Source: an uncultured Desulfosporosinus sp. (lineage in GTDB: Bacteria; Bacillota; Desulfitobacteriia; Desulfitobacteriales; Desulfitobacteriaceae). Taken from it: a stretch of DNA of 64,000 bases. This document shows positions 18,420 through 41,645 of the stretch, piece by piece (position 1 is the first letter of the stretch; each line of letters begins with the position of its first letter). The DNA lies in assembly GCA_927405585.1 (NCBI GenBank), contig CAKMJS010000129.1, forward strand, positions 1-64,000, read 5' to 3'. Both the position numbers and the translations under genes were made by a program. The notes beneath the pieces are model-generated. The model saw only the letters and a list, made by a program, of their open reading frames with translations, ran no database searches and was not told where the DNA came from.

Positions 18420-20906
18420 TTATAATATATATTCTGCTAATTGTTCAATAATCGTGTCAGGTACCACCGAAGAACCCCCAAGTAGAAAGACCTCTTTACA
18501 TCCTCTTGCACGACCAAAAAGATAACCGGATACCTCTTGAGTGAGCTTTTGATCAACAAGTATTATAGGACTATTAGTCCGGGCAGCTAGAACGGAACCT
18601 GCTAGAGCATCAGGAAAGTTATTCCCGGTTGCCACGAAGATATTAAATAAATCTGCGGATAAACCTTCAGCAATTTTAACGGCAGTTTCGTAACGATCCT
18701 TTCCGCCAAAACGAATTGGCTTAGGAACTTGTTTTTCGATTTCAGCACTCACTGCTCCCTGTCCACCAACAATGATAGTTTCGCTTACCTGTAGCTCCAG
18801 TAGAACTTCCTGAGTTGTTGCCGATAAGGTGTTGGGTTCGGTTAATAAAATAGGAATATATTGATGAGCTGCCATTGAGGAGACGGCTAAAGCATCGGGG
18901 AAATTCACTCCGCTTGCTATAACAGCTTTATTTGTTTTGAGATATCCATTTTCCGATAAATACTTGGCAATAGCTGCTGAAGTTGCATAACGATCACTTC
19001 CTCCTAAACGCGTTACAGTGTATTTCTTCTTTAATTGTGATTCGATATCGCTTGAGACAGCTCCCAAGGAGCCCAAAACAAACACGTTCCGAGGATTAAG
19101 TCTGTTGAGTTGCTCTGCTGTTTCGGGAGTTAGAGTGTTACTATTCGTTAGTAATATCGGGGCATTAAGACTATAGGCCAATGGAGTCCCTGTTAATGCA
19201 TCCGGGAAATCGTCATCTCTTGCGAGAATAACTGTATCGCTGCCGTAATTCCACCCTGTTTCAGCGATTATATTTGCTGTCTCAGTTCGACCACTACCGG
19301 CAAGTCTGAATGAAATAGGGTCATTTTCAACCTTGACCGGAGTTGGAATATGCGTAAATGTCCCGTTTCCGACTTGTCCAGTAGCATTATAGCCCCAACC
19401 CCATACCTCATTCTCAGTGCCACGTATTACCAATCCATGAAATCCTCCTGCACCTATCGCTTTAACATCCTGCCAATCGTTTAATTGTATTGGACTGTAT
19501 AAAGCTAAACGTTCAGTCTCCGTCCCTAGTTCAGAGAGACGATTATCTCCCCAAAGCCAAGCCGAGCCGTCATTTTTTAATGCCAGGTTAAAAAAGTAAC
19601 CTGAAGATACTTCTTTAATAGAGCTAATTCCCTGTACCTGAACAGGGGTTAACCTATTTTCATTGGTCTCATCCCCTAATTCGCCTTCAGCATTATTACC
19701 CCAGGCCCAAACAGTGCCGTCATATTTTAAGGCAATACTGTGTTCCCAACCGGCGGAAATTTTGTAAACATTATTAAGCCCTACGACCTGGACAGGTTTT
19801 GTTTGATGCTCAAGATCACTGTTACCTAATTGACCATTGGTGTTTTCTCCCCAACTCCAGACTGTGCCATCATTTTTTAAAGCTAGGCTATGATTTCCCC
19901 CGGCAGCAATACCAATAACACCGCTTAAACCGTCACCTTGGACAGGAGAGTACTTGTCTTTCAAAGAACCAATGCCAAGCTGGCCTTTGCTGTTATCTCC
20001 CCAAGCCCAAACTGTACCATCATCTTTTAAAGTTAAAGAATGTTGATTACCGGCTGCAACAGCCACAACGTGGTCAAGCCCTGGTATTTTAGAAGCATAT
20101 AATTGTGAGTTAGTATTACCGTTACCTATTTGCCCCTTGTTGTTTGCTCCCCACGTATAGACTGCACCTTCTGAAGTCGCCACAAGAGTATGATTGAACC
20201 CTACTGCAAGGTCTATCGATCCAGTCGTTCCAGTGTTTTTAGGCATATAACGTGGGATGGTAGTGTTATCTCCGATTTGCCCCTCTTGATTGGAACCCCA
20301 AGCCATAATCCATCCATAATCGGTCATGAGAACACTGTGGTTAGCTCCAGCCCGAATTTTACTACCATTATCTACGAAACGAAAGCCTTCATTAAAGTTA
20401 AAGCTATAGGGAGCTTCCATCAATCTACCAGCAATACCTGAGACATTTTCTACAACAACGGTATACTTTACACCACCATTTAAATTTAGGTTTGGGAGCA
20501 GTCTGACTTCTCGAGAATTTGACGGATTTATTCTTAATTCTGCCGGTATTTGCATTCCCCCGCCATCCAGTAAGCGAAAGTTATTGCTGTTTATCGTTGA
20601 TGAATCGACAGCTGAATTAAATTGTATGACAACTTCAATTTGAATCCCTTTGCGCTGACTAACCGCTGTTGCATGATTAAGCGTATCAAGATTCCAAAAA
20701 TTCACTTGTAGTGAACCATCATCGCGTGCTGCATTGGAATAATTTGATCCTGCACTTATATCGGTTACCGGGAAATTTTCTTGTGCGGCTTGAACCGTTT
20801 GTACACTGCCCGGAAAAGTTGGAAAGAAGTTAACAAGGATCATAACCAAAAGAAAAAAGACCTTAATTAAATGAAAGATTTTCCTTTTACTAACCGAAAT
20901 AGACAA
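18420..20906 (-). CDS. Secreted wall-anchored protein with RCC1 propeller and three CWB2 repeats
   Basis: About 828 residues. A basic N-terminus and a long hydrophobic core ending VQAAQ form a signal peptide. An Ig-like (SbsA/Big_5-type) domain follows, then seven RCC1-like blades, each ~50 residues, with HS(L/I)ALK.DGTVW.WG..N..GQLG. The last third has three cell-wall binding 2 modules, recognised by RL.GS.RTETA, RLGGSDRYATSAAIA and RFGGKDRYETAVKIA. CWB2 modules hold proteins to anionic wall polymers in clostridia; RCC1 propellers usually bind protein. TTG at 20906 with GGGAGG upstream is the likely start, although the frame is open to 20963. The ligand is unknown. Confidence 0.88.
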   Translation of the reverse strand: MSISVSKRKIFHLIKVFFLLVMILVNFFPTFPGSVQTVQAAQENFPVTDISAGSNYSNAARDDGSLQVNFWNLDTLNHATAVSQRKGIQIEVVIQFNSAVDSSTINSNNFRLLDGGGMQIPAELRINPSNSREVRLLPNLNLNGGVKYTVVVENVSGIAGRLMEAPYSFNFNEGFRFVDNGSKIRAGANHSVLMTDYGWIMAWGSNQEGQIGDNTTIPRYMPKNTGTTGSIDLAVGFNHTLVATSEGAVYTWGANNKGQIGNGNTNSQLYASKIPGLDHVVAVAAGNQHSLTLKDDGTVWAWGDNSKGQLGIGSLKDKYSPVQGDGLSGVIGIAAGGNHSLALKNDGTVWSWGENTNGQLGNSDLEHQTKPVQVVGLNNVYKISAGWEHSIALKYDGTVWAWGNNAEGELGDETNENRLTPVQVQGISSIKEVSSGYFFNLALKNDGSAWLWGDNRLSELGTETERLALYSPIQLNDWQDVKAIGAGGFHGLVIRGTENEVWGWGYNATGQVGNGTFTHIPTPVKVENDPISFRLAGSGRTETANIIAETGWNYGSDTVILARDDDFPDALTGTPLAYSLNAPILLTNSNTLTPETAEQLNRLNPRNVFVLGSLGAVSSDIESQLKKKYTVTRLGGSDRYATSAAIAKYLSENGYLKTNKAVIASGVNFPDALAVSSMAAHQYIPILLTEPNTLSATTQEVLLELQVSETIIVGGQGAVSAEIEKQVPKPIRFGGKDRYETAVKIAEGLSADLFNIFVATGNNFPDALAGSVLAARTNSPIILVDQKLTQEVSGYLFGRARGCKEVFLLGGSSVVPDTIIEQLAEYIL

Positions 20907-21076
20907 ACGGAATACTACCTCCCTCTGAAACGTATAGCTTACGTAAAAATGAATGCTAGGCAAATGATACCTTGATACTATTCGTTTAATGTTTTGAAAA
21001 TCATTTTACCTTGGTAGTTGAAATTTATGGAAGTCTGCATAAATTCAATGTCAAAGTATTCCGCTAAACCATAACA

Positions 21077-21117: not shown

Positions 21118-21283
21118 TAGTTGATTAAAACTATCAAACAGCCTATCATAGAGGGATTTGGATGAAAACGAAGAATATAGTAGTTTTATGAACTCGTTAT
21201 CTGGGAGTATTTTCATCAATCTACTCAGCATATCTAATTTTCTCGAGTTAAAGTTAGATATTCGGATTTTGGAGGATTAGGAT

Positions 21284-21466
21284 ATGAAACTAAGAAAGAT
21301 TACATTTATGGTTTTGATAATAGCCTTATCTATTTTAGTAGGATGTGATGAGAAGAAATATCCTGAAAATTAGTTGCATTAGTTAATGGAGTAATCATAA
21401 AAGAACAAGAAATCGAAAAAGAAATAACTGAAAGAAAGATGGCCCTAGCGATTGGGGAAAAGAAGC
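21284..21466 (+). pseudogene. Frameshifted, truncated lipoprotein (SurA/PrsA-like N-terminus)
   Basis: ATG at 21284 with GGAGG upstream begins a lipoprotein signal (MKLRKITFMVLIIALSILVG then C, a lipobox). The frame stops at TAG (about 21372), while the next frame continues at once as LVALVNGVIIKEQEIEKEI, the start of a SurA_N/PrsA-like chaperone domain. The coding sequence is then cut by the 50-bp repeat at 21467. Two lesions show a dead gene. Confidence 0.6.
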
Positions 21467-21528: not shown

Positions 21529-21639
21529 AAGTATACAAACAACCCAGAGGTAGGCCGATGAACGTGGCCTTCCTCTGGGTTGTTAAGCGTTTGACTGACT
21601 TATTATTGGAGCTTGAGCAAGCACTGGCGATAATCTGTT
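21529..21639. repeat. Dispersed two-hairpin element, copy B
   Basis: AACAACCCAGAGG..GGCC pairs with GGCC..CCTCTGGGTTGTT (21538-21584); a shorter GCTTG/CAAGC stem follows at 21612-21623. Compared with copy A at 4665-4770, one stem position has changed on both sides (C-G for T-A), which keeps pairing. Confidence 0.65.
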
Positions 21640-21659: not shown

Positions 21660-21760
21660 CGACTCTTGTCACAGGGCCATTTGTCCATCCTTGGACATCG
21701 CTCTAATTCTGCTTTCAGACGTTTCCCCCGGCCATGCAAGCTCAAGAACCGTCCCGAAAA
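21660..21760. repeat. Partial inverted copy of the large palindrome family
   Basis: TGTCCATCCTTGGACA (21682-21697) is a perfect 6-bp stem with loop TCCT. Read on the other strand the loop is AGGA, as in the two full units downstream. The rest of a unit is not complete here. Confidence 0.5.
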
Positions 21761-21853
21761 CTTGCATACCCACCCTCTTCCCGACGCTTTTACCGTTAGG
21801 CGGTAAACAGGCCGTCGTCCCCAACTCTCTCTCCCGCGCCCCAAATCCAGAGG

Positions 21854-22064
21854 GTCCGTGATCACACGCTCCGACGCCTATGTGGTCGTCGTAGCCAAAC
21901 TCGGCTTTAATCCGCTTTCCTAAAGCAGAACGGGAAACAAGGACGTTTCCCGCCGGCAACCGGCCAAGGATGGCCGATTTGCCGGGTATTCTGCTTGCTT
22001 GCATTACGGATTAAAGCCCTTGTTTGGCACGATGAACGCATGGTCGAGGACGTGTCTCGCGGAC
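21854..22064. repeat. Large palindromic unit 1
   Basis: Outer arms of about 60 bases pair imperfectly: GTCCG..GGCTTTAATCCG (21854-21914) against CGGATTAAAGCC..CGCGGAC (22007-22064). Inside are CGGGAAAC/GTTTCCCG (21931-21952) and CGGCCA-AGGA-TGGCCG (21961-21976). No protein-like frame covers it. Confidence 0.75.
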
Positions 22065-22092
22065 TCTCCTCTCCGTCGACCCAAACCAGAGG

Positions 22093-22315
22093 GTCCACGA
22101 TCACACGCTCCGACGCTTATGTGGTCGTCGTAGTCAAACTCGGCTTTAATCCCCTTTCATCGGCAGGGCGGGAAACATGGACGTTTCCCGCCGGCACTGC
22201 GACAAGGATGTCGCATCTGCCACGAAACACATGTGTTTCGCCCAACCTCTTGCATCAAGGATTAAAGCCCTAGTTTGACACGATGAACACATAGCTGAGG
22301 ACGTGTGTCGCGGAC
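22093..22315. repeat. Large palindromic unit 2 (tandem copy)
   Basis: Same plan as unit 1: outer arms 22093-22152 and 22259-22315, GCGGGAAAC/GTTTCCCGC (22168-22191), TGCGACA-AGGA-TGTCGCA (22198-22215), plus an extra perfect palindrome CGAAACACATGTGTTTCG (22223-22240). It ends five bases before the polC stop. Confidence 0.75.
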
Positions 22316-22319
22316 CCTT

Positions 22320-25300
22320 TTAAAACAAGCTAAACTGATTCGTCTCCGCTAATCCTTCAAAACACCCATGTGCCTTCAGTACTTCAATAATAGTTTTGCT
22401 AAGCTTCAAATCTTCAATCGATTTGATCCCTTGTTCCTCACGCAAAGCGACAATATTTCGAGCGGCAGTTTCTCCTAAGCCTTGGACCGATGTGAAAGGC
22501 GGTAAAAGCCCTGTGGGAGTTAGTAAGAAATCTGTCGCCACAGATTCCCAGAGATCGACTTTCCTTAGAGTGATTCCCCTAGAATACATCTCAATCGCCA
22601 GTTCAAGAATCGTAACCATATTCTTTTCTTTAGCAGTCGCTTCTTTTCCCTTTTTTTCGATTTCTTCAATTGCTTGGCGGCAGGCATCTTTTCCTTGAAT
22701 GACGATTTCAATATCAAACTCATCGGCACGAACGGTAAAAAATGTCGCATAGAAGGCTTCCGGGTAGTTAAGCTTAAACCAGGCAATTCTGAAAGCCATC
22801 GTCACGTAGGCAACTGCATGTGCTTTAGGAAACATATATTTAATTTTTTGGCAGGATTCGATGTACCAGTCAGGCACACTGTTAGCTCGCATTTCCTCAA
22901 TTTGCTCTGGTTTTAGCCCATATCCCTTTCGAACACCTTCCATTATTTTAAAGGCGTGCGAGGGTTCTAACCCTTTATAAATTAGATAGACCATGATGTC
23001 ATCACGACAGGCAATTATCTCAGAAATAGTGGCTGTTCCGCCTTTAACAAGTTCTTGAGCATTTCCAATCCAGACATCAGTCCCGTGTGACAACCCGGAA
23101 ATACGCACTAAGTCTGAAAATCCCTTGGGTTGGGTGTCCTCCAGCATTTGCCTCACAAACTTAGTTCCAAACTCGGGAATACCGAAGGTCCCTGTTTTAG
23201 AATAGATCTCCTCCGGAGTTACGCCTAAGGCCTCTGGGCTAGAAAACAACGACATTGTCAACTGATCATCTAGTTGAATAGCTAAGGCATCGACTCCAGT
23301 TAAATCCTCCAGCATTTTAATCGCTGTGGGATCGTCATGACCAAGGATATCGAGCTTAACTAAGCGACCGGAAATCGAGTGATAGTCAAAATGGGTAGTG
23401 ATGATATCGGACTTCTGATCATCTGCTGGTCTCTGTAATGGGGTAAAATCAAAAATATCACACTCTTTTGGAACCACCATTTGTCCTCCAGGATGTTGTC
23501 CTGTAGTTCGCTTAACCCCAGTGCATCCCCTGATTAATCGCGACATTTCAGCGGGTCGCACTTGAAGTTTCCGCTCATCTAAATAATTTTTAACATACCC
23601 AAAAGCCGTTTTATCGGCGATTGTCGCAATAGTACCAGCCTTAAAGACATTATCTTTGCCAAATAAATCTTCCGTAAAGTGATGGGCTCGTGCCTGATAA
23701 TCTCCCGAGAAGTTTAAATCAATATCTGGCACTTTATCTCCTTTAAAGCCCAAGAACGTCTCAAAGGGGATATCATGACCATCTTTGGCCATCTGTTGCC
23801 CGCATTTCCGGCACTCCTTATCCTGTAAATCCGCTCCTGATCCAACGCTCCCGTCGTCAACCCAAATAGAATGCAAACACTCCTGATTTACACAACGATA
23901 ATGGGGAGGCAATGGGTTGACCTCGGTAATACCAGTCATTGTGGCCACAAACGACGATCCAACCGACCCTCGAGAACCCACTAGATACCCGTCTTCGTTC
24001 GATTTTTTGACCAGCAAGTGAGCGATTAAGTAGAGCACGGAGAAACCATTTCCGATAATGGCCTTTAGTTCTTTCTCTAAGCGTTTTATAACAACCTCGG
24101 GTAATGGGTCACCGTACAAAGCACGAGCCCTTTCCCAGGACATCGTCTCAATTTTTTCCTCTGCACCCGGTATACTTGGCGTGAAAAGTTCATCCGGGAA
24201 CGGTTTTAACGCTTCAATCTCGTCAGAAATACGTTTAGGTGCACGAACAACCACTTCCAAGGTCTCTTCTTCGCCTAGGTAAGAAAACTCCTGGAGCATC
24301 TCCTCCGTCGTTTTATAAAACAAGGGAGCTTGGTCATCGGCATCGCTAAATCCTTTTCCTGCCATGATAATTCGACGATAGGCCTCATCCGCCGGATCCA
24401 GAAAGTGAACGTCGCCTGTTGCTACGACTGGCTTATTAATTTCTCGTCCTATGGAGAGTACAGTACGATTGATTTCTCGGAGTCCATCCTCTGAAGGCAC
24501 TTGACCGTTACGTAGCAAAAAGGAGTTATTCCCAATCGGTTGAATTTCCAAATAATCATAAAAAGCGGCTATCTCATGTAATTTTTGTCGAGATTCTTTA
24601 TGCATAATGGCTTGGATAAGTTCACCCGCTTCACAAGCAGAACCGATAATCAGCCCTTCCCGATGAGTCTGGAGCAATGATTTTGGTATCCGTGGTCGCC
24701 GATGAAAGTACTCCAGATGGGACGCTGTAATTAATCGATATAAATTTTTTAACCCAATTTTATTTTTAACCAATAGAATAATATGTCGGCTCTTCAGTTG
24801 ATTTAAAGGAGGAGTCCCTGGTGCGTCATCGATCAAGTACCCCTCGACACCGAAGATTATTTTAACTCCATATTTAGCCCCTGCCTCAACAGCTTCCGGA
24901 AACGCTTGCACCACTCCGTGGTCAGTAATCGCCATTGCCTCATGACCCCAGTGGCTTGCCCTTTCAATCAGTTCTTCTGCTGAAGTCATGCCATCCATCG
25001 TTGACATGCGTGTATGACAATGTAATTCAATCCGTTTTTCCATTGCCAGATCCTTACGTATTGCCGGGGACGTCCGTTGCATGTCTTTCGGCATTAAGGT
25101 CAGCACAGAATCGTAACGATCATATTGAACACTTCCCCGAACTTTTACCCATTCTCCTATTTTAAGGTCCAGGCTCTGTTGCTCTTTTTCTAGAAAAACC
25201 TTGGCAGAAATCGAATCTGATTTATCTGAAATCGTAAAGGTGAGTAGTACTCGTCCCGATTTTAATTTTCGATACTCAATCCCAAAGACTTGCCCCAAAA

Positions 25301-25997
25301 CGATAACCTGACGTTCTTCGTCTTGAACTTCTTGCAATGAAACGGATTCTCCATTAAATTCTTTCCCTAACAAGCACATAACTCGCTTTTTATCCGGTGC
25401 TACCCCCGGCTTAGACGGAGAGGAAAGAAGTTGCTGTAAATGCTGCAACTCCACCGTTTCAGTTTGCTGGGCATGGTAAGCATAATCTACGCTGGTGTCC
25501 AGTTCACATATAATCTGCGGATTTAAGCGATAACGTGTCTGAAAGTATTTCTCAACAACGTGTTGTTTGGTATTGAAATATTCAATCCCTAAAGCATTCG
25601 GCACGAAGAGCCGCAGTTCTTCGTTGGACACTTCATAACGCGCTTCGCCAAGCCAACCTTTCATGGAAGGGAGCTGATTCGTAATATCCTGGACAATTTC
25701 TCCCCAGTGATTCTCACAAAGGGATTTTAAGGAAGCGGCTTGTAGCGCGCACTCAACACACATTTCAACCTGCTTAATCTCTGGAACTTGCCCCATAAGT
25801 AACTCTTTCAAGGCTTTCAAACTGGCTTCCTCCAGCTCATACGACGAAGAAAGGTGGAGGACCCATCTCCCTTGTTTGGGAAAGACCTCCACCCGAATGA
25901 GCTCTACCGTCATTAGATCGCTTTGCCAAGGCCCAATTCGACTTGGAGGAAGTTTTAATATGAATGGAACTTCCATTAATGGAAGGGTCCTAACCAT
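22320..25997 (-). CDS. polC: DNA polymerase III alpha subunit, PolC type, without exonuclease domain
   Basis: The replicative polymerase of Gram-positive bacteria, here 1225 residues against about 1440 in Bacillus. Order: N-terminal domains (1-210), OB fold (about 225-300), PHP domain (ELHCHTRMS, ITDHG), a zinc-binding module (two CxxC pairs with CRKCG), palm with PDIDLNFSGD, YLVGSRGSVGSSF, and C-terminal helix-hairpin-helix region. After GVEGYLIDD (about residue 390) the chain goes straight to HIILLVKNKIGLKNLY, where other PolCs carry a ~200-residue DEDD exonuclease with a DVETTG motif. No such motif occurs anywhere. ATG at 25997 follows GGTGGGGGG; TTG at 26021 is the alternative. It lies 97 bases after proS. 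Confidence 0.95.
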   Translation of the reverse strand: MVRTLPLMEVPFILKLPPSRIGPWQSDLMTVELIRVEVFPKQGRWVLHLSSSYELEEASLKALKELLMGQVPEIKQVEMCVECALQAASLKSLCENHWGEIVQDITNQLPSMKGWLGEARYEVSNEELRLFVPNALGIEYFNTKQHVVEKYFQTRYRLNPQIICELDTSVDYAYHAQQTETVELQHLQQLLSSPSKPGVAPDKKRVMCLLGKEFNGESVSLQEVQDEERQVIVLGQVFGIEYRKLKSGRVLLTFTISDKSDSISAKVFLEKEQQSLDLKIGEWVKVRGSVQYDRYDSVLTLMPKDMQRTSPAIRKDLAMEKRIELHCHTRMSTMDGMTSAEELIERASHWGHEAMAITDHGVVQAFPEAVEAGAKYGVKIIFGVEGYLIDDAPGTPPLNQLKSRHIILLVKNKIGLKNLYRLITASHLEYFHRRPRIPKSLLQTHREGLIIGSACEAGELIQAIMHKESRQKLHEIAAFYDYLEIQPIGNNSFLLRNGQVPSEDGLREINRTVLSIGREINKPVVATGDVHFLDPADEAYRRIIMAGKGFSDADDQAPLFYKTTEEMLQEFSYLGEEETLEVVVRAPKRISDEIEALKPFPDELFTPSIPGAEEKIETMSWERARALYGDPLPEVVIKRLEKELKAIIGNGFSVLYLIAHLLVKKSNEDGYLVGSRGSVGSSFVATMTGITEVNPLPPHYRCVNQECLHSIWVDDGSVGSGADLQDKECRKCGQQMAKDGHDIPFETFLGFKGDKVPDIDLNFSGDYQARAHHFTEDLFGKDNVFKAGTIATIADKTAFGYVKNYLDERKLQVRPAEMSRLIRGCTGVKRTTGQHPGGQMVVPKECDIFDFTPLQRPADDQKSDIITTHFDYHSISGRLVKLDILGHDDPTAIKMLEDLTGVDALAIQLDDQLTMSLFSSPEALGVTPEEIYSKTGTFGIPEFGTKFVRQMLEDTQPKGFSDLVRISGLSHGTDVWIGNAQELVKGGTATISEIIACRDDIMVYLIYKGLEPSHAFKIMEGVRKGYGLKPEQIEEMRANSVPDWYIESCQKIKYMFPKAHAVAYVTMAFRIAWFKLNYPEAFYATFFTVRADEFDIEIVIQGKDACRQAIEEIEKKGKEATAKEKNMVTILELAIEMYSRGITLRKVDLWESVATDFLLTPTGLLPPFTSVQGLGETAARNIVALREEQGIKSIEDLKLSKTIIEVLKAHGCFEGLAETNQFSLF

Positions 25998-26094
25998 GTA
26001 TGTTCCCCCCACCTTACTCAAATGTTCGAACTTCTATATTGCATTTCAATGAGTAGAGTTATTTCTTTATCGTTTTTAACTTTTTAAGTAGAAA

Positions 26095-41395: not shown

Positions 41396-41601
41396 GGCTA
41401 ACACCCCCTTCTTTAAAGTTTACTAGGGCATTTTCAGTGTGTCAAGTAAATTGTAGACAATTTGCAACTTTTTGTGAAAATTCACTCTGTTAAAGATAAA
41501 AAGAGTTATCCGATCTCGTCAACGGCTCTGCGCCTTCGGCATAAGTCTATCCTCAGCGCTATAGTATTCGTTACGGGCCGTGCGCTTTCGGCGATACTCT
41601 C

Positions 41602-41645
41602 CACTGGAGACTATCGCACTGGAGACTATCGCACTGGAGACTTAC
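41602..41645. repeat. Short tandem repeat in the xerC-hslV gap
   Basis: CACTGGAGACTATCG occurs two full times and once in part, in direct 15-16 base steps. The rest of the gap 41396-41684 has no gene. Confidence 0.65.

Follow-up and report, generated by a model that had tools for sequence, protein, structure and literature searches.

What are the two large palindromes that lie in tandem beside a DNA polymerase gene in the window (the whole 64,000-nt stretch of Desulfosporosinus DNA that was analysed), and what would preserve their fold while their sequence changes? The locus is made up as follows.

About 21850–22070, plus strand (the GGA strand): unit 1, a palindromic element of the TwoAYGGAY type, recognised by its RF01731 match and its fold z score.
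21931–21952, plus strand: hairpin 1 of unit 1, CGGGAAAC-AAGGAC-GTTTCCCG, with the CANGGANG motif.
21961–21976, plus strand: hairpin 2 of unit 1, CGGCC-AAGGAT-GGCCG, with the CANGGANG motif.
About 22088–22318, plus strand: unit 2, a TwoAYGGAY-type element and the second of the tandem pair, recognised in the same way.
22167–22192, plus strand: hairpin 1 of unit 2, GGCGGGAAAC-ATGGAC-GTTTCCCGCC, with the CANGGANG motif.
22198–22215, plus strand: hairpin 2 of unit 2, TGCGAC-AAGGAT-GTCGCA, with the CANGGANG motif.
22223–22240, plus strand: an extra hairpin, CGAAACA-CATG-TGTTTCG, present in unit 2 only and without a GGA loop.
21682–21697, minus strand (which carries the GGA loop): a lone ANGGA hairpin, TGTCC-AAGGAT-GGACA, in a separate truncated module.
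22320–26021, minus strand: gene for a PolC-type DNA polymerase III alpha subunit whose stop codon abuts unit 2 (context).

Unit 1 is 221 nt and unit 2 231 nt long, and their arms are 84–86% identical. Each folds as one long hairpin (unit 1, −126.5 kcal/mol, z −11.4; unit 2, −121.4 kcal/mol, z −12.3) whose energy was equalled by none of 200 shuffles. The tandem large palindromes of about 225 nt each that a sequence-only reading of this DNA had described are thus borne out. In unit 1 the outer arms measure about 60 nt and the tip holds two ANGGA hairpins. The same reading assigned the same inner hairpins to both units; two GGA-loop hairpins are indeed present in each, but unit 2 carries the extra hairpin at 22223–22240, so that the units differ in build. 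Hairpin 1, absent from that reading, has loops (AAGGAC in unit 1, ATGGAC in unit 2) of the same kind as hairpin 2, and the sequences at 21961–21976 and 22198–22215 agree with its statement that the stem of hairpin 2 differs between the units while the loop is unchanged. A spacing of 27 nt between loop starts is shared by the two units and the majority of other copies. What had been taken for a third, inverted copy at 21682–21697 is a genuine minus-strand hairpin; it belongs, however, to a different, truncated module, complete versions of which elsewhere in the genome (L012, L024, L026) read GATGTCCAAGGATGGACAAGTGTCCCTGTAGCCAAGGATGGC. Across 209 kb of DNA surrounding copies in this genome, ANGGA-loop hairpins with a stem of at least 6 number 83, versus 4–10 for seven permuted loops.

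A search of the window against Rfam at curated cut-offs found no family. When the region of the units was searched permissively, TwoAYGGAY (RF01731, gathering score 43 bits) covered both units over the full model length at scores below that threshold: unit 1 with 38.4 bits (E 2.3e-4, model 1–168 at 21879–22042) and unit 2 with 33.7 bits (E 2.6e-3, model 1–168 at 22118–22293). The genome contains 36 RF01731 matches at E ≤ 1, and nine of them, with 44–49.6 bits, exceed the gathering score. Because of these full-length sub-threshold matches and the higher-scoring sister copies, the units are, as judged by sequence comparison, divergent copies of this known family, although the earlier reading knew no name for them. 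They share with TwoAYGGAY the covariance-model match, the layout of two GGA-loop hairpins enclosed by a long outer stem, and the occurrence in Clostridia. They differ from it in scoring under the curated threshold and in a second loop base that is mostly A instead of Y; the strict AYGGAY sequence fits only one of the four loops in the window (ATGGAC), the other three having A at the second position. A pattern scan of genomes recovered the same cores mainly in Desulfosporosinus. The RF01731 model often scores the complementary strand with TCC loops higher (matches L066, L070, L072, L077 and L079); its strand calls are therefore unreliable, and the GGA loop is the better guide. A weak Rfam match to mir-583 at 21541–21581, a eukaryotic microRNA family far under its cut-off, was discarded.

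Weinberg et al. (2010) listed TwoAYGGAY from human gut, Gammaproteobacteria and Clostridiales; they considered it likely to be an RNA and unlikely to be cis-regulatory (PMC2864571). Gardner and Eldai (2015) proposed from its motif that it binds CsrA, with validation as 'work in progress' (PMC4333381), and tandem G-A pairs in one of its stems are cited in the same paper. Our literature search found no later experimental paper on this proposal.

Conservation of the fold is shown by the distinct double-hairpin cores, 53 in number, that were collected from the copies of this genome and about 20 relatives. Among the 25 cores that were aligned, changes on both sides occur in 13 of 20 pairs, 97% of cells pair, and at one stem pair all four Watson-Crick types are found. 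The covariation score is 0.519, versus 0.137 in shuffled alignments (reached by none of 500) and at most 0.147 with partners slid. The earlier claim that the fold is preserved while the sequence changes thus holds well beyond the window, with the loop constant: C-A-N-G-G-A-N-G is invariant in all 106 hairpins of the 53 cores. All four bases occur at the second loop position, with A the commonest, and in 105 of 106 hairpins the loop ends in a pyrimidine. Searches with stems only (five long stems, for example GGGAAAC, and GCGAC) always returned ANGGAN loops or their complement from the other strand. The motif bound by Rsm proteins is CANGGANG, and the SELEX consensus for CsrA is RUACARGGAUGU (PMC6849547). 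On comparison of the letters, the loop positions that are invariant and those that are free agree with the Rsm/CsrA motif, 5'-CANGGANG-3', and an exact 12-mer of the SELEX consensus occurs in seven cores. Counts of ACANGGANGT were dropped as a whole-genome CsrA footprint, the coding background being too high; among Desulfosporosinus genomes they were clearly above the reversed control only in G000, G022 and G028.

The genome encodes both CsrA and FliW. Its single csrA adjoins fliW, a DUF-type gene and flgL (a flgL-fliW-csrA cluster), and the encoded CsrA retains L4 and R44, the RNA-contacting residues of E. coli CsrA. In Firmicutes, FliW is the known antagonist of CsrA. A degraded copy of the element lies directly behind csrA itself. 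Across 62 genomes of the class that were at least 90% complete, with all negatives searched again under laxer filters, RF01731 was present in 32 of 55 with CsrA versus none of seven without it (Fisher p 0.004, phylogeny being ignored). Within the genus the corresponding figures are 21 of 22 and none of two (p 0.011), with only two informative losses; in the CsrA-encoding genome G029 no RF01731 copy was found. Copies often share a contig with csrA (G009, G024, G026, G025, G010, G018). This is a lead only and its clustering p-value was left unused, because genomes had been chosen for a csrA contig that holds a copy. In several Desulfosporosinus genomes csrA-like genes number three or four, some of them in tandem (G026:C6:115102–115915; G016, G019, G025, G029).

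The elements number in the dozens per genome, with tandem and nested arrangements, and their placement is precise. Unit 2 comes to an end 1 nt short of the polymerase gene's convergent stop codon; that codon is TAA, and AAGGGTCC follows it. When the elements are read along their GGA strand, a convergent gene lies downstream of 55 of the 64 that have a mapped neighbour on that side. The interval between hairpin 1 and that gene's stop codon measures 129–132 nt at 22 sites, which places the start of the element 0–3 nt behind the stop. Starts directly behind convergent stop codons, often TAG, in one orientation were seen in many species (22318–22322 and further loci). The abutted genes, as read from sequence, are diverse (MraY, RecG, Smc, dGTPase, HemN, PssA, citrate carrier). 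Five close relatives each have, behind the end of this polymerase gene, an element of the A or D type, whole or as a fragment (L120–L123 near 1400–1500; window 22280–22320), so that one type takes the place of another at a single site. The placement is so far accounted for neither by selection nor by a preference for particular targets. No conserved promoter was detected upstream of 59 copies, forward and reverse scans being alike.

A second high-copy palindrome, 'D', has the arms GGAAGTTTCTTAGC/GCTAAGAAACTTCC (L012:533–800; L121:1047–1410; window 41549–41616). It occurs in a form that lacks hairpins and in one whose tip bears ANGGA hairpin cassettes; nested in it are additional hairpin modules, for example CGATAGTCTCCGGTGGAGACTATCG. 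In G028, which has CsrA, about 11 of 24 copies, taken from among the best-scoring ones listed, carry a cassette, versus none of 19 in G020, a CsrA-less genome that represents a single lineage (p 0.0008). That hairpins were lost from the 'D' palindromes of G020 along with csrA is weakened by the hairpin-less form being common in CsrA-encoding genomes too. G020 retains one degraded CsrA-type cassette, at about 1500–1650 of L163, between clpC-like and radA-like genes.

On whether the structure acts as RNA or as DNA cruciform, both of which had been suggested from the window, the data are divided: the loop matches the motif of an RNA-binding protein, yet the wobble asymmetry in the arms does not favour the GGA strand. 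If that strand were selected as RNA, G-U should exceed A-C mismatches; the observed sign is the opposite (112 versus 172 in the outer arms, read on the GGA strand, and 53 versus 58 in unfiltered cores), and G-U pairs are almost absent from clean, intact core stems. The palindrome is therefore either kept at the DNA level, or its arms depend on the opposite RNA strand. Both the motif in the loop and the csrA link indicate the GGA strand, which is not fully reconcilable with these counts. DNA-level spread and homogenisation combined with a tip selected for CsrA binding would fit both observations.

Taking these data together, we regard titration of CsrA by the dispersed hairpins as the most likely function, and give it about an even chance. 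Each palindrome tip presents a pair of hexaloop hairpins with the C-ANGGAN-G recognition sequence of CsrA/RsmE, 27 nt apart; given transcription of the GGA strand, every copy would be expected to bind CsrA, and dozens of copies would jointly titrate the protein, as CsrB and RsmZ do from single genes. The copies are likely to have spread as a non-autonomous repeat, lodging immediately after stop codons. Most of them are antisense to the abutted gene, so GGA-strand RNA would need antisense transcription. This position counts against titration, as do the missing promoter signal, the wobble of the wrong sign, the uncorrected co-occurrence, the absence of a copy from G029 and the L163 cassette in G020.

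Two rivals remain serious. The stronger of them, though clearly less probable than titration, is a DNA palindrome of the MITE or REP kind that is or once was mobile: a transposase or another protein would recognise its hairpins in single-stranded form, its arms would be kept complementary at the DNA level via cruciform or hairpin-templated correction, and its likeness to a CsrA site would be secondary. This reading accounts for the dozens of tandem and nested copies, the precise one-orientation junction after stop codons, the differing element types behind one polymerase gene in five close relatives, the near absence of G-U in clean cores, and arms without a GGA-strand wobble bias. It is opposed by conserved letters that match the fixed and free positions of an RNA-protein motif, by an element presence that follows csrA, and by the lack of a match in the plasmid and phage records searched; no partner transposase turned up, short of a genome-wide search for one, and a pattern match in a viral contig (L233) looks like chance.

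Somewhat less probable again is a gene-end element that acts on the mRNA-sense strand, where a giant 3'-UTR hairpin behind the stop codon, with UCC loops on the RNA, would protect or end the message. The convergent gene downstream of most mapped elements, the near-fixed distance from hairpin 1 to the stop codon at 22 sites and a wobble excess that falls on the mRNA-sense strand are consistent with such a role, but it leaves the invariant ANGGAN loop and the csrA link unexplained. Nor is the structure a canonical terminator: no T-run follows the stem, and no intrinsic terminator, with its G+C-rich hairpin plus T run, was reported in the units on either strand. Chance, an ordinary terminator or an IS end, suggested by the palindromic form only, is refuted by fold z scores below −11, a covariation reached in none of 500 shuffles and the Rfam match, and can be dismissed.

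If the hairpins do titrate CsrA, the nearest precedents are the sponge RNAs CsrB/CsrC and RsmX/Y/Z, which likewise have several GGA-loop hairpins fitting CANGGANG in a host that encodes CsrA. CsrA sponge RNAs are well established in Gammaproteobacteria only (PMC4333381). Unlike them, the units have no visible promoter or terminator of their own, are scattered in many copies where those RNAs have one to three genes, and lie antisense at gene ends. The reverse complement of Bacillaceae-1 RNA (RF01690) has been paired with TwoAYGGAY as a candidate CsrA-binding RNA of uncertain strand (PMC4333381); our sequence comparison, which was limited to Rfam, gave no match to it. As high-copy intergenic palindromes near stop codons the units also resemble REP/BIME elements and MITEs. 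REP elements carry a foot motif, in place of which the units have conserved GGA hexaloops. The literature search found no mention of dozens of TwoAYGGAY copies per genome, of placement at stop codons, or of the hairpins on unrelated palindromes. The very high copy number, the placement, with a start usually within about 3 nt of a convergent gene's stop codon and a near-constant orientation, and the hairpins on unrelated palindromes thus appear to be undescribed.

It is tempting to speculate, albeit with considerable doubt, that pairs of CsrA-site hairpins form a module that sits on several unrelated palindromic mobile repeats, is placed antisense behind tens of housekeeping stop codons, and is lost from the repeats once csrA is lost. 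The sponge of the genus would then be no single sRNA gene but a network of scattered sites coupled to antisense transcription at each locus. If true, this would be a repeat family that brings binding sites for a regulator to the ends of genes. Genomes of this genus hold tens of CsrA-site repeats, and among close relatives some have csrA and others lack it, which makes the 2015 proposal directly testable here.

The surroundings of the units hold further features of their own. In the gap upstream lies a lipoprotein gene remnant (21281–21460), apparently the broken start of a PrsA/SurA-like gene, and at 21538–21584 a 19-bp inverted repeat, 95% complementary (AACAACCCAGAGGTAGGCC/GGCCTTCCTCTGGGTTGTT), which is separate from the units. 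The minus strand at 18420–20963 encodes a protein of 847 aa that combines RCC1-like propeller repeats with three CWB2 cell-wall-binding domains.
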